A stretch of DNA of 64,000 nt from Akkermansiaceae bacterium (GTDB taxonomy: Bacteria > Verrucomicrobiota > Verrucomicrobiia > Verrucomicrobiales > Akkermansiaceae), in the NCBI GenBank assembly GCA_015062005.1, contig SUVL01000003.1:1-64000 (forward strand). The letters run 5' to 3'. A model generated the notes under the pieces. That model made no database searches and was not told where the DNA came from. It saw nothing but the letters and a program-made list of their open reading frames with translations. Numbering within the stretch: the first letter of the stretch is position 1; every line of letters starts with the position of its first letter. Position numbers and translations under genes: made by a program. Positions 2,194-8,033 of this stretch are shown here, in pieces.

Positions 2194-3435
2194 ATGGACG
2201 ATTCTACACAACAAACGACAACGGAAACCAAGATGACATTCGAAGAACTGGGGCTTTCCGCCCCCATTCTGGAAGCCGTGAAGGACTGCGGCTATGAGAA
2301 CCCGACACCGATTCAGGAGCAGGCCATCCCCCACATCATGCAAGGCAAGGATGTCATCGGCGCCTCCCAGACCGGCACGGGCAAATCCGCCGCATTCGCC
2401 CTTCCTCTGCTCAACAACATCACCCACACCGGGCAGCCCCAGGTGCTGGTGCTTGAGCCCACCCGCGAGCTTGCAGACCAGCTGGCAGAGTCCTTCCGCA
2501 CCTACGCGAAGCACACCGATATCAAGGTGGGGCTGCTCTACGGCGGCGTTGGCTACGGCGCCCAGACCGAGGAGCTCAAGAAGGGCGTCGATGTCGTCGT
2601 GGCGACTCCGGGCCGCCTCATTGATCATTTCTACCGCGGCAACATGAAGTTCAAGGCCGTGAAGACCCTGGTCCTGGACGAAGTGGATCGCATGACGGAC
2701 ATGGGTTTCCTGCCCATCGTGCGCAAGATCGTGAATCTCTGCCCCTGGGAAGGACGCCAGACCCTCTTCTTCTCCGCCACCATGCCGCAGATACTGCAAG
2801 GCTTTGCCAAGTGGTGCCTGACCGACCCGGTGGAGATAGCCATAGCCCGCCGGGAAGTGGCCAGCACCATATCCCACGCCTTCTATCCGGTGGGGCTCGA
2901 CCAGCGAGATGAGCTGCTGCTCGCCCTCATCAAGGCCACGGATTTCCAGAACCTCATGATTTTCACCCGCACCCGCAAGGAAGCCGACACCGTGGGTAAC
3001 ATGCTCGCCAACGCCGGCTGGAAGGATGAGGTGACCGTGATGCACTCCGATATCGCCCAGAAGGAGCGCATGGCCGCGCTCAAGGGGTTCAAGGAGGATA
3101 AGTTCCGCATCCTTGTGGCCACGGACGTGGCTGCCCGAGGGATTGATATCAACGGCGTGACCCACGTCATCAACTACCGCGTGCCGGAAAACCCGGAGGA
3201 CTACGTGCACCGCATCGGCCGCACCGGCCGTGCCGAATCCACCGGCGATGCCTTCACCCTGCTCACTGCCGATGAAGTGGACTTTGCCAAGAGCGTGGAA
3301 ATCTTCATCAACCGCAAGATTGCCCGCCGCAAGCTGGACGGCTTCAACTACGCCTACACCGCCCTGCTGGAGGAAGGGCCCGTTCGACCGGTGCGCAAGC
3401 CGCGCCCCGCTGCCCCCAAGCGCCGCCGCCGCTGA
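2194..3435 (+). CDS. DEAD/DEAH-box RNA helicase
   Basis: ASQTGTGKSAAFALP, PTRELADQ, LVLDEVDRM (DEVD variant), FSATMP, ATDVAARGID, HRIGRTGR. Confidence 0.95.
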   Translation: MDDSTQQTTTETKMTFEELGLSAPILEAVKDCGYENPTPIQEQAIPHIMQGKDVIGASQTGTGKSAAFALPLLNNITHTGQPQVLVLEPTRELADQLAESFRTYAKHTDIKVGLLYGGVGYGAQTEELKKGVDVVVATPGRLIDHFYRGNMKFKAVKTLVLDEVDRMTDMGFLPIVRKIVNLCPWEGRQTLFFSATMPQILQGFAKWCLTDPVEIAIARREVASTISHAFYPVGLDQRDELLLALIKATDFQNLMIFTRTRKEADTVGNMLANAGWKDEVTVMHSDIAQKERMAALKGFKEDKFRILVATDVAARGIDINGVTHVINYRVPENPEDYVHRIGRTGRAESTGDAFTLLTADEVDFAKSVEIFINRKIARRKLDGFNYAYTALLEEGPVRPVRKPRPAAPKRRRR

Positions 3436-3449
3436 TTTCTGGACCAGAG

Positions 3450-3956
3450 ATGCGCGTTGTCAGCATAGACCCCGCCATCCGCAACACGGGATACGCGGTC
3501 ATCGATGGAGATTTCCGCGCCCCGCGGGCGCTGGATTACGGCACGCTCTCCCTGCCGGCAAAACTGAGCCAGAGCCAGTGTCTGCTGGCTATTCATGAGC
3601 ATGTATGTTCCCTTATCGACAAATGGCAGCCCGATGAGCTTGCCATCGAAGGCATCATCTACGTGCAGAGCCACCGCACGGCCATCACCATGGGCTCCGC
3701 CCGGGGCGCCACGGTGCTGGCAGCAGCCCGCCACGGCCTGCAGATTATGGAATACCCGCCCAGCTGTGTGAAACTGGCCACCGTGGGGCGCGGTGGTGCA
3801 GGCAAACAGCAAGTGGCCTTCATGATGCGCGCCCTGCTCCACCTTACCGAAACACCGGCCCCCGATGCGGCCGATGCGCTGGCCATCGGCTACACCCACC
3901 TCGCCGCCTCCGATCCCATCCGCGCCCATCTCTTCCGCGAGCGCAAGTACATCTGA
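3450..3956 (+). CDS. ruvC: Crossover junction endodeoxyribonuclease RuvC
   Basis: SIDPAIRNTGYAVI, LAIEGIIYVQS, GSARGATVLAA, PDAADALAIGYTH; acidic catalytic residues present. Confidence 0.9.
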   Translation: MRVVSIDPAIRNTGYAVIDGDFRAPRALDYGTLSLPAKLSQSQCLLAIHEHVCSLIDKWQPDELAIEGIIYVQSHRTAITMGSARGATVLAAARHGLQIMEYPPSCVKLATVGRGGAGKQQVAFMMRALLHLTETPAPDAADALAIGYTHLAASDPIRAHLFRERKYI

Positions 3957-3980
3957 CGTGGGCAGGCAGCCCTGCCGCGT

Positions 3981-5360
3981 TTATTCCTCATCGAAATCCG
4001 GTTCCTCCGCACCATCGGCGAAGAGCTCGTAGGCTATGGAATCCACAATTTCCACCTCGGCAAACTCGCCAACGGGGAGAGCCGGATCCACATGGATGGT
4101 GCCATCCACATCCGGGGCATCCCAGGGGCCGCGGGCAATGCCGGGAGCATCCACCAGCACACGCATGCGGGAACCGATGCTCTCCTGCCCGATTTCATCA
4201 GCAATGCCGGCCAGCAGCATGGAAAGCTCGTTGCTGCGGCGCTTCCTGGTGGCGTGGTGTACCTGGTTCTTCATTTTTGCTGCGAGGGAACCTTCCTCCC
4301 TGGAATAAGGGAAGACCCCGGCACGCTCGAAACGGAACTCCTTGATGAACTCACGCAGCTCTGCATGGTCTTCTTCCGTTTCTCCCGGCAGACCGGATAT
4401 GAAGGTAGTGCGCAGGCCGATACCGGGCACCGCTGCGCGAATATCGCGGATGAGGTTTCGGATGTAGTCGCCATCCGTCTTGCGGCGCATGGAATCCAGG
4501 ATACCGTCTGCAATGTGCTGCAGGGGGATATCCACATATTTCACCACCTTCTCGCACTGGGCAAAGGTCTCGATGAGCTCCCGGCTCCAGTGGGCGGGAT
4601 GGGTGTAAAGCACGCGTATCCAGAAATCGCCGGGGATGGCATTTATCTCGCGCAGCAGGCTGGCAAGCGATTCACCGCGGGAGGAATCCACCCCGTCGGT
4701 CTTGCTGCCGCGCTTCTCCCACTTGTCCATGCCATAGTAGGTGGTATCCTGGGCAATGAGGTTGATTTCCCTGGCGCCCTGCGCCACCCAGTGGCGCACT
4801 TCCTTGAGGATATTGGCCTGCGGCCGGCTGCGGTGCCCACCGCGAATGCGAGGAATCACGCAGTAGGCACAGGCGTGGTTGCACCCCTCGGCAATCTTCA
4901 CATAGGCATAGTGCGGCGGCGAAATCAGCTTGCGAGGCACGCCCCAGTCCGGCAGGTAGGTGGAAACCTTGCTCGTGTAGGTCTTCTCTGCCGAGCCGTT
5001 CAGGCAGGCAGAGGCAATCTCCGCCACCCGGGTGATTTCATCCACCCCCATGAAACAGCTTACCTCCGGCATCTCTTTGACCAGCTCCTTCGCATAGCGC
5101 TGGGAGAGGCAACCAGCCACGATGATATGCTGCTCCGCCGGGGCTTCCCCCGCCTCGCGGGCGCGTACGGCATCAAAAATGGTGTTAATCGCCTCCTCCT
5201 TGGCGGGGTCAATAAAACCGCAGGTGTTGATGATGAGCACATCGGCCTCCCCCGGCTCCACCTGGCGGAATCCGGCCGCCACCATGCAGCCGGTCATGTG
5301 TTCGGAATCCACCTGATTCTTGGCACAACCCAGGGAAATAAGAGCGAAGGATGCATTCAT
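3981..5360 (-). CDS. rimO: Ribosomal protein uS12 methylthiotransferase RimO
   Basis: MNASFALISLGCAKNQVDSEHM; INTCGFI; radical SAM EGCNHACAYCVIPRIRGGHRSR; TRAM-like C-terminus; start trimmed from 5408 to 5360. Confidence 0.93.
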   Translation of the reverse strand: MNASFALISLGCAKNQVDSEHMTGCMVAAGFRQVEPGEADVLIINTCGFIDPAKEEAINTIFDAVRAREAGEAPAEQHIIVAGCLSQRYAKELVKEMPEVSCFMGVDEITRVAEIASACLNGSAEKTYTSKVSTYLPDWGVPRKLISPPHYAYVKIAEGCNHACAYCVIPRIRGGHRSRPQANILKEVRHWVAQGAREINLIAQDTTYYGMDKWEKRGSKTDGVDSSRGESLASLLREINAIPGDFWIRVLYTHPAHWSRELIETFAQCEKVVKYVDIPLQHIADGILDSMRRKTDGDYIRNLIRDIRAAVPGIGLRTTFISGLPGETEEDHAELREFIKEFRFERAGVFPYSREEGSLAAKMKNQVHHATRKRRSNELSMLLAGIADEIGQESIGSRMRVLVDAPGIARGPWDAPDVDGTIHVDPALPVGEFAEVEIVDSIAYELFADGAEEPDFDEE

Positions 5361-5403
5361 GCGCGCATTATACCCGCGAGCCGCCCCGTAAGCAAGCAAA
5401 ATG

Positions 5404-5844
5404 GGCATTTGGCGAGCCGCAGGCGAGTCAAATGCCTATCCCTCATGCGCTAGCATGAGGGATTTCATACATGCCACAGGCATGTATTTCATGCACTGCG
5501 ATAGCAGTGCTTTCATACCGCTGCGAGCAGCGGTATTTACATACTTGCGATAGCAAGTATTTCATTGAGCGAAGCGACTAGTTACCGCTGCATCAGCAGC
5601 GGTACTGCCATTTTCGCAATATATTGGCCATAAGCGTGCAATGGGATACATAAAGCATATAATTTTTCCCAGGGAAGGCTAATTTATTATGCGACCGCCC
5701 ATTGGATGTACCGCTGCTAATGCAGCGGTAACTAGTCGCTTCGCTCAATGAATTACACCGGCAAAGCCGGTGTATGTAAATACCGCCTGCGGCGGTATGA
5801 AAGCGGCACTATGTGCCGCATGGCTCTGGCGTATACGCCAGAGC
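5404..5844. repeat. Mirror-symmetric array of about 12 short perfect hairpins around a 44-bp inverted repeat
   Basis: Hairpins at 5404-5436, 5440-5461, 5467-5487, 5493-5510, 5515-5536, 5541-5560, 5583-5604 | 5709-5730, 5754-5774, 5780-5798, 5803-5819, 5823-5844; 5561-5604 is the reverse complement of 5709-5752 with one mismatch. Confidence 0.95.
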
Positions 5845-5874
5845 TGCAAATTCCAATAACGGGGGGGGGAAAGG

Positions 5875-5911
5875 AACCGGCTCCCCACCAGGAAAAGGCG
5901 AGGAGCCGGTT
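5875..5911 (-). terminator. Stem-loop downstream of the small basic protein gene
   Basis: aaccggctcc...ggagccggtt perfect 10-bp stem; no strong U-tract on the minus strand. Confidence 0.5.
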
Positions 5912-5939
5912 TTGAAGTCGGGATATAATAGAGACGCTA

Positions 5940-6071
5940 TTAGTCCTTGGAAATCTTCTTAGCCATCTGAACAGGCGCAGTGTTCTTGCTGTTCTTGGCG
6001 ATTTCCTTCTGGCGCTTGATGTAAGCGGTGCGGCGGCGACGCTTCGTCTCCTTACGATGTTGTTGACCCAT
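5940..6071 (-). CDS. Small basic protein (43 aa), probably ribosome or nucleic-acid associated
   Basis: MGQQHRKETKRRRRTAYIKRQKEIAKNSKNTAPVQMAKKISKD; highly basic; internal start in ORF 5940-6200. Confidence 0.65.
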   Translation of the reverse strand: MGQQHRKETKRRRRTAYIKRQKEIAKNSKNTAPVQMAKKISKD

Positions 6072-6222
6072 GGTGGTTCTGTTGTGTGTTTGTAGGGCAG
6101 GCAAACAGGCCCGCCCGGGTTGATATAAGTGACTCTTAAATACAGCTTTTACTTTGGGATTGCAAGGCAAAAGTGTGTGTACTGGCTTTTTTATTGCCAA
6201 AAAAGGGCGTAAATGCTAGTCT

Positions 6223-7146
6223 ATGGGCATGAAAACCGCCATATTGGGAGCAGGTGCGCTGGGATGCTACTACGGTGCCCGCCTGGCCGAAGCCGGGCAT
6301 GAGGTGTGCTTCATCGGCCGCTCCGTGTATGAACCGCTGCGCGCAGAAGGGCTGCATGTGGAAAGTGTACATGGGGATATCCACCTGCCACAGGTGAAAG
6401 TATGCCGCAAGGCTGAGGAATGCGGTCCGGTGGACCTGGTGATTGTTTGCTGGAAAACCACCTGCAACGACCAGCTGGCCCACTACCTGCCCGCCCTGGT
6501 GAAAAAAAACACCGAGGTGCTTACCTTCCAGAACGGCATGGGCAATGCCGAGGCCATCTCCGCCTTTGTTCCCGCAGAGCGCGTTTTCATCGGTCTGTGC
6601 TTTGTGTGCTGCATGATGGATGAACCCGGCAGAATCCGCCACCTGGAGGGCGGAGATATCCAGTTTGCGCCCTTTGTAAGTTCACCGGCAGGTTCAGCCC
6701 GGGCGCGCGAGTTTGCAGCCATGTTCGAGCAGGCCCGCATCGTTTCCACTGCGTTTGACCACGCAGAGCAGATTCAGTGGTGCAAACTTTCCTGGAATAT
6801 CCCCTTCAACGGGCTCTGTGTGGCCCATGGCGGTATCAGCGTCAAACAACTCTTCACCATGCCGGGAGAGGATGCCCGCGCACGCGCCATCATGGAGGAG
6901 GTATGCCAGGCCGCAGAGAAACGCGGCTTTCCCCTGCCGCTGGATATCGTACACCGCCAGATGGAGCGCACGCGCATCATGGGCGAGTTCATCCCCAGCA
7001 GTGCGGTGGATTACCTGCGAGGCCGACCCGTGGAGTACGATGCCATCTGGGGCAGCACGCTGGAAAGAGCCCACGAAGCCGGAGCAGACGTGCCGCACTG
7101 GGATAAACTGGCAGCCGATATCCGCGCAAGACTGAACCGCCCATGA
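6223..7146 (+). CDS. panE: 2-dehydropantoate 2-reductase
   Basis: MKTAILGAGALGCYYGARLAEAGHEVCFIGR; KTTCNDQ; KLSWNIPFNGL. Confidence 0.85.
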   Translation: MGMKTAILGAGALGCYYGARLAEAGHEVCFIGRSVYEPLRAEGLHVESVHGDIHLPQVKVCRKAEECGPVDLVIVCWKTTCNDQLAHYLPALVKKNTEVLTFQNGMGNAEAISAFVPAERVFIGLCFVCCMMDEPGRIRHLEGGDIQFAPFVSSPAGSARAREFAAMFEQARIVSTAFDHAEQIQWCKLSWNIPFNGLCVAHGGISVKQLFTMPGEDARARAIMEEVCQAAEKRGFPLPLDIVHRQMERTRIMGEFIPSSAVDYLRGRPVEYDAIWGSTLERAHEAGADVPHWDKLAADIRARLNRP

Positions 7147-8033
7147 TACTGAATCCAGCCAGTTCCCTGCGTCAGGCTCTCCGCTGTGCCGGGGCTCTGC
7201 TCCTGCTGGCAGCAGCCGGCTGGGGGCTGCAACCACTGCGCCTGCACCTGCAACAGCAGGAAAAGGAAGCCCACCTGAAGCTGCCGCCGCCGGATTATGA
7301 ACGCACGGATGCCCTCTCCCAGCAGCTGGTCCTGTTCGGGCTGGGCGGCTTACGTACCTTTGCGGCAGAGATGCTGTGTGTTGATGCCACGAACGCCTGG
7401 CTGCAGCAGGACTGGCCACGCGCCCGCCAGCGCTGGGAACAGATTACCACACTCTGTCCCCGCCGCGTCAATTACTGGATTCGAGCCGCCCGCGATATGG
7501 CCAAGAACGCCGTAGCCTGGGTGAAGCAGGATGAGCACCTGGACGCACACGCCCGCGCCGTGCTCTGCAAGGATTATCTGGATGCCGCCGAAACCTTCCT
7601 GCAAGAGGGTATTGCCAACAATCCGCAAAGTGCCCTCCTCTGGCTGGAAATGGGCGCATTTGATGAAGACCTGGCCCGCCGCACCAACTTCACCCGCGCG
7701 GTGGAGGATTACCGCCGCGCCGTGGAGCTGGGAGCCTCACCCATGTACAAGCGCTGGGAATTCTACAATCTCTGCCGTATCCGCGGCCGCGAGCAGGAAG
7801 CCTGGGAACTGGGCCGCAGGCTGTATGAAGAAGAGCGCCACCGTTCCCCCTCCCTCCGCTGTCTGCTGGTGGTGCTGCAGAATAAGCTCCAGGTTCCTGA
7901 GGAACAGAAATTGAGCCCGGAGCAACTCTTCGGTTCCCGTGAACGGGCGCTCAAATTCCTCCGTCCCTTCCTTCGCAACGACCTTCGCTTCCCCACCACG
8001 GGAATCAGAGAGTATCTTGATGCAGCGGAATAG
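7143..8033 (+). CDS. Hypothetical membrane-anchored TPR-like protein
   Basis: N-terminal hydrophobic segment and TPR-like helical repeats; overlaps the panE stop by 4 nt. Confidence 0.6.
   Translation: MILNPASSLRQALRCAGALLLLAAAGWGLQPLRLHLQQQEKEAHLKLPPPDYERTDALSQQLVLFGLGGLRTFAAEMLCVDATNAWLQQDWPRARQRWEQITTLCPRRVNYWIRAARDMAKNAVAWVKQDEHLDAHARAVLCKDYLDAAETFLQEGIANNPQSALLWLEMGAFDEDLARRTNFTRAVEDYRRAVELGASPMYKRWEFYNLCRIRGREQEAWELGRRLYEEERHRSPSLRCLLVVLQNKLQVPEEQKLSPEQLFGSRERALKFLRPFLRNDLRFPTTGIREYLDAAE

Follow-up and report, generated by a model that had tools for sequence, protein, structure and literature searches.

The block of short hairpins lying upstream of rimO in the window (the whole 64,000-nucleotide stretch of DNA analysed here) is best read, with a probability of roughly 0.68, as a MITE-like, non-autonomous copy, devoid of an ORF, belonging to a mobile element family in which the fuller members have an S23/IVP gene between mirror-image hairpin arrays, and which would be maintained and spread by the mechanism proposed below. 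This reading builds on direct observations: a repeat family, a fixed arm grammar, compensated turnover of the stems, S23 genes in the cores of sister copies, a constant spacing at the core ends and 8-bp duplications around the carriers. The window belongs to the draft genome of an Akkermansia gut bacterium (G000; 2.43 Mb, 51 contigs), and its nearest named matches are MAGs from goat and sheep rectum.

Aligned with eight other near-full copies (L002-L009), the window copy extends from hinge to hinge over positions 5399-5857. The extent given in the preliminary description (5404-5844) is slightly too short, as the left hinge, AAATGGGCATTTG (5399-5411), starts at 5399 and its inverted counterpart, the right hinge TGCAAATTCCAAT (5845-5857), continues to 5857. 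The 12 mirror-symmetric hairpins described there, seven on the left side and five on the right side of a 104-nt core, were found again in the sequence, as was the inverted repeat next to the core (5561-5604 and 5709-5752), whose halves are 44 nt long and reverse complementary save for one mismatch. The outermost left hairpin, GGCATTTG..CAAATGCC (5403-5436), has a longer loop and is of a type that recurs elsewhere in the genome, either solo or with other payloads. It is followed by a left array of five hairpins (5438-5560, with individual hairpins at 5438-5463, 5467-5487, 5493-5510, 5515-5536 and 5541-5560) separated by the linkers ttc, ttcat, tttc and ttac, linkers being conserved among 46 arms, and then by the left 44-bp arm (5561-5604), made up of a TTCATTGAG..CGAC hairpin region and the inner hairpin TACCGCTGC-atca-GCAGCGGTA (5583-5604). 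The 104-bp core (5605-5708) takes the place occupied by the S23/IVP gene in sister copies; no ORF is found in the core of the window copy, which carries an AATGGGA motif (consensus ATTGGGA) at core position 36 on the plus strand (5640-5646) and a mirror motif on the minus strand, CCTGGGA (5/7 matches), at position 36 from the opposite core end (5667-5673). On the other side, the right 44-bp arm (5709-5752) contains the inner hairpin TACCGCTGC-taat-GCAGCGGTA (5709-5730), and the right array has four hairpins (5754-5844; 5754-5774, 5780-5798, 5803-5819 and 5823-5844) with the linkers tgtaa, gaaa and atg, being two units short of fuller sister arms such as those of L004. Stems measure 7-11 bp and loops 3-4 nt throughout the block, the outermost loop excepted.

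This block is a real, unusual and reproducible feature. Under the same hairpin rule, at least three closely spaced hairpins occur nowhere else in the 64-kb window, and 20 shuffles of the window gave two hairpins in a row at most; as the predicted RNA fold of the block moreover has a z of -17.5, the block cannot be ascribed to chance. Nor is it an assembly artefact, a possibility raised at the outset, since many contigs of this genome, and eight further genomes, show blocks built in the same way. It is not a CRISPR, as had been stated from the sequence beforehand, its constant parts being linkers of 3-6 nt and its variable parts palindromes. No intrinsic-terminator match was found inside the block.

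A search of the genome and of sister strains, as proposed in the preliminary description, revealed that the element is multi-copy and also present in other Akkermansia genomes. With the block as BLAST query, nine near-full copies were recovered from its own genome, on different contigs, along with fragments (the 97 aligned pieces obtained are not a copy number, because many represent one arm matching the mirror arm). Arms were found in 9 of 76 Akkermansia genomes. The window block is a member of a dispersed family, not a one-off. Copies that were examined sit within or beside intergenic gaps, between protein genes, and for one of them (L002) the flanking genes are adjacent without the array in three relatives (G033, G034 and G035), the spacer being too diverged for a base-by-base reading of the junction. 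No Rfam 15 family was found for the block, which could have turned out to belong to a catalogued repeat family, and the whole window gave no Rfam 15 match at the gathering threshold and no match in the phage collection. In the open literature searched, a scope that leaves out most subscription papers, we found no earlier description of the element and nothing relevant on Akkermansia RAYT, MITE or palindromic repeats, or on a four-helix-bundle protein with inverted repeats. An S23 element in another genome (L264, G018:C130, 803-2353) has its left arm in three tandem copies and its right arm in two; arms can therefore amplify as units.

Every arm follows the same order from the core outward: the inner hairpin TACCGCTGC-n4-GCAGCGGTA, a TTGA..CGAC hairpin, and then further hairpins separated by the linkers gtaa, gaaa, atgaa and gaa(a). 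Across the 46 parsed arms, 10-15 distinct stems are found at each hairpin position, and these are 94-100% Watson-Crick paired, against 44-59% after re-pairing of left and right halves between arms. Because the arm parser accepts only stems that are mostly paired, the absolute pairing figure is inflated; what is informative in this test is how far it exceeds that of re-paired halves, and how many different stems occur. Structure is thus kept while stem sequence turns over, through either selection or a copying mutation mechanism. An RNA domain and a DNA structure had both been suggested for the block; the conserved structure, with stems that change and stay paired, bears out this part of the suggestion, and the stem mismatches (six A-C, one G-T) are too few for their strand bias to distinguish action as RNA from action as DNA. 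A test for the ATTGG motif additionally pairing with the start of the core (CCNNN) gave a marginal result (P ~0.008 including G-T pairs, 0.08 with Watson-Crick pairs only), and we do not propose such a pairing.

The cores of sister copies carry a gene of the S23/IVP family (PF05635 / TIGR02436, annotated as 'four helix bundle protein' or '23S rRNA intervening sequence protein'). The arms of the family surround a 118-aa S23 ORF in G033 (L023/L114) and in the window genome itself (L028, contig C42), the sister-copy protein scoring 54.4 bits with Pfam (cut-off 33.8) and 65.1 with NCBIfam (cut-off 24), with 2rld as its nearest solved structure. An S23 gene also lies between arms in G034 (L089) and G035 (L098), a truncated S23 is left in the core of a further G034 copy (L090), and S23 is found with arrays in G026, G018 and G040, the G040 gene lying at the end of a contig with a single array in view. 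S23 is present in the core of one copy in seven of the nine array-bearing genomes. The close S23 subfamily (at least 75% identity) follows the arrays, occurring in 7/9 array-bearing versus 0/15 array-free genomes, the latter being mostly more distant relatives; G036, a near relative judging by rimO (96%), has neither arrays nor a close S23. Arms are present without a close S23 in G042 (71% complete) and G043. These S23 genes are under strong purifying selection, with dN/dS of 0.03-0.08 where dS is not saturated. Three of the S23-bearing copies (L028, L114 and L098) have neighbouring genes in common (an apparent clpB-guaA interval, read by eye) and differ in their stems.

ATTGGGA (at least 6 of 7 bases) is located 35-37 positions past the inner hairpin at 47 of 66 core ends, against 0.4% in shuffles. 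This spacing is common to S23-bearing and ORF-less cores, the latter measuring 103-106 bp among those read in G000, G026 and G034. Raw similarity between the window core and the ends of S23 cores is not above that of shuffles, so the homology of these cores rests on position and motif, by which the window copy appears to be an ORF-less version of the S23-carrying element. A second S23 element type in the same genome (L052, G000:C36, S23 at 105887-106225), with a CGATA linker replacing TGAAA, shares the mirror-hairpin layout around its S23 gene.

As first described, the window copy lies between rimO (3981-5360) and the gene of a small basic protein (5940-6071), both on the minus strand; the latter, 43 aa long, has no match in Pfam or NCBIfam. 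The left hinge starts 3 bp from the -35 hexamer of a putative rimO promoter, read by eye (-10 TATAAT, 5367-5372; -35 TTGCTT, 5390-5395). When an empty counterpart of the window copy was sought in relatives, the upstream neighbour proved to differ in each one read. In G026, the closest relative with arrays, the same place upstream of the rimO promoter is taken by another palindromic element (L131, G026:C62), which ends in a similar hinge, AAATTTCCATTT; this suggests a reused insertion site. Neither a recognisable carrier TIR nor a target duplication surrounds the window copy, and its own insertion is putative. Elsewhere in the window, an ORF on the minus strand (657-1115) resembles, by eye, a fragment of an insertion-sequence transposase.

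Several sister copies are nested in a longer repeat with the TIR CACACGTGTCCCAAAG/CTTTGGGACACGTGTG and flanked by exact 8-bp target duplications, namely GTCCACAC for L008 and CATTTTTT for L004, both full copies, and GAAAAAAA for the partial copy L125/L181. Bare carriers, having the same terminal repeats and no array, form an ordinary MITE family with 9-bp duplications (ATGAAGCTC, CAGTGAACC, GAACGGCGC and CCTTCCCTC). No transposase recognising the carrier TIR CACACGTGTCCCAAAG was found. The hinge AAATTGGAATTTG is common to two other carrier types and is also occupied by other hairpin payloads, one of which has a Y1 transposase gene. Taken together, the palindromes are nested within one another, from carrier to hinge, hairpin arrays and 44-bp stem down to a gene or its remnant; the window copy has the hinge and no recognised carrier. 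Of three options offered in the preliminary description, the mobile hairpin element is supported by the multiple copies, the target duplications of sister copies and the array-free orthologous site; the core slot and the carriers were not visible to its reader. An array in L005 (G000:C33) lies inside a longer palindrome, GAGCCCTATACCC..GGGTATAGGGCTC, directly past the stop codon of a gene, possibly as an insertion into a terminator hairpin. An abundant 210-bp MITE family of the Akkermansia clade with the TIR CACACGTGTCCCAAAG and 9-bp duplications (L191-L210, e.g. L203, L207 and L210) contains short repeats of the ATTTACAATTGACA type resembling those beside some S23 genes.

The Akkermansia element shares features with several known systems. 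In the 23S rRNA intervening sequence (IVS) of Coxiella burnetii, an S23-family ORF likewise lies within inverted repeats forming a long stem, at a former hairpin tip (PMC4990558). RNA stem-loop architecture is common to both, and the sister copies do encode an S23/IVP protein within inverted repeats, the window copy being without the ORF. Related IVS without the ORF exist elsewhere. Unlike IVS, the Akkermansia element is found between protein genes and not in rRNA, its flanks consist of 5-7 separate hairpins with fixed linkers instead of one 28-bp stem, and many ORF-less copies are dispersed in one genome. As the examined copies are located between protein genes, we consider it an S23-type element, not an rRNA IVS proper (a 23S helix-tip insertion excised by RNase III). 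The carriers of sister copies are typical MITEs, with TIR and 8-9-bp duplications (seen at L004, L008 and L125/L181), except that they enclose the hairpin array as a payload, and the window copy has neither the TIR nor the duplication. REP, BIME and REPtrons with TnpA-REP (RAYT) also consist of intergenic palindromes with short constant tags in mirror-image grouping (PMC3733652, PMC8266576), and Y1 transposase genes are present in the same genomes as the Akkermansia arrays. The arrays differ in having no GTAG/CGTC tag (the linkers are gtaa, gaaa, atgaa and gaa) and no conserved stem sequence, with 10-15 stems per position, which agrees with the initial view that the block is not a simple REP; the core protein is S23 and not Y1, and sister copies have 8-bp target duplications. 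The element works like an IVS/MITE composite, being S23-type, not an rRNA IVS and, by the tests made, not a REP.

From these comparisons we infer how the element might move and what S23 might do. The family would persist as one S23-coding copy with ORF-less followers. S23/IVP is homologous to Avd of diversity-generating retroelements, in the same four-helix-bundle family (PMC10053308), and by analogy with Avd may bind the arrays' folded RNA or DNA in trans. The element would spread by landing in the tips of pre-existing palindromes (the hinge, the MITE carriers), as suggested by rRNA IVS, which replace helix tips (PMC4990558). It would then be moved with its carrier by a cut-and-paste transposase making 8-9-bp target duplications, presumably of the DDE type (none was found). 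The hairpins would keep a symmetric fold recognised by S23 or by the insertion step, and the arrays may incidentally shield neighbouring genes from read-through.

Other explanations fit part of these data. REP-like hairpins with a GAAA or GTAA tag could spread in the form of single-stranded DNA through a Y1 (IS200/RAYT-like) transposase resident in the genome, S23 being a passenger. The hairpin with its short conserved linker does resemble a REP with its tag, Y1 genes occur in all nine array-bearing genomes, and one of them (L027) is located amid arms of the family, flanked by mirror hairpins of its own with a GTGAAAG linker. However, Y1 genes are also found in 5/7 array-free genomes tested, for which reason we reject Y1 as a specific partner; the one Y1 that was scanned misses both NCBIfam thresholds, scoring 44.9 against 55 for IS200 and 22.2 against 80 for REP-associated transposases, and the arrays lack both the GTAG or CGTC tag and a conserved stem sequence. 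The 8-bp target duplications around sister copies count against it as well, such duplications not being known from Y1 transposition. Spread by Y1 therefore seems unlikely, although these transposases are a possible, non-specific helper. Less probable still is that the block is retained because it benefits the host, as a structured RNA or a transcription insulator whose hairpins, with the TTTC before the core, would block read-through in each direction. The compensated stems, the very stable fold, the polarity of the linkers and the position of examined copies in or beside intergenic gaps would suit such a role, but not the dispersal of multiple copies at unrelated loci, the array-free orthologous site or the absence of an intrinsic-terminator match inside the block and of an Rfam family, and the S23 gene in the core would be left unexplained.

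The resemblance of S23/IVP to Avd (PMC10053308) raises the idea of a retroelement in which a reverse transcriptase copies the array RNA under S23 guidance, and arms conserved in structure would suit an RNA intermediate. This differs from the Avd system in that reverse transcriptase was not found in most array-bearing genomes: in 5/7 S23-plus-array genomes (G000, G026, G034, G035 and G018, all drafts) a PF00078 gene was sought and not found, which weakens this route, and the target duplications around copies fit the carrier TIR. We consider it very improbable. We give least credence to the view that mutation (template switching at quasi-palindromes) perfected the hairpins, without selection or a protein partner, and that S23 hitch-hikes by coincidence. 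The near-absence of any mismatches fits a copying mechanism as well as selection, and the tandem arm duplication in G018 (L264) is in keeping with it, but fixed linkers, a fixed core spacing and an S23 gene that lies inside the array in seven genomes and is under strong purifying selection are not what it predicts. Under the preferred reading, a non-autonomous copy of an S23-carrying element, S23 gains a defined partner, namely multi-copy arrays of kept structure and changing sequence, some of them coding and others ORF-less. S23-encoding intervening sequences have been described as unclear in both origin and function (PMC4990558); the Akkermansia arrays offer a natural context for their study, in which the function of S23 becomes a matter of testing binding and mobility.

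The S23 observation of widest reach concerns the phylum as a whole. Four-helix-bundle S23-family genes were found in 71 of 115 Verrucomicrobiota genomes searched. At 18 of 29 S23 loci, one per genome and each from a different genome, the left flank matches the reverse-complemented right flank better than in every mismatched pairing, and 22/29 reach a rank P < 0.05; among 18 cold-shock genes handled alike, none was best and none reached P < 0.05, the test covering one phylum and this one control family. Across the phylum, S23 genes generally lie between mirror-image repeat arrays, which outside the Akkermansia clade mostly consist of ~7-nt units (GTGAATC, AGGAGTC and the like) and not of hairpins. 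It is conceivable, at somewhat less than even odds in our estimation, that S23/IVP genes are generally the coding parts of an unrecognised mobile or selfish class defined by mirror arrays, rRNA IVS being the special case located in rRNA helices, and the Akkermansia clade the case with ORF-less followers and arrays grown into back-to-back hairpins. If phylum-wide mirror arrays do mean the same, a large class of selfish elements would have gone unannotated.

Some Y1 loci of the window genome have hairpin sets of their own. Several hybrid arrays lie within ~4.5 kb in L027 (G000:C24:18000-28000, 2700-7400), with left arms having ATATCGTC/CGATA linkers and right arms ATGAAA linkers, and the Y1 gene of this locus (3250-3735, minus strand) sits between two of them, with its own mirror hairpins. 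Y1 (IS200/RAYT-like) genes are also found inside other mirror-symmetric hairpin sets at L048 (G000:C12) and L049 (G000:C34). The Y1 frame on C12 contains a TAG, and many loci (L032, L033, L035-L043) have L048-like hairpins but no Y1 gene.
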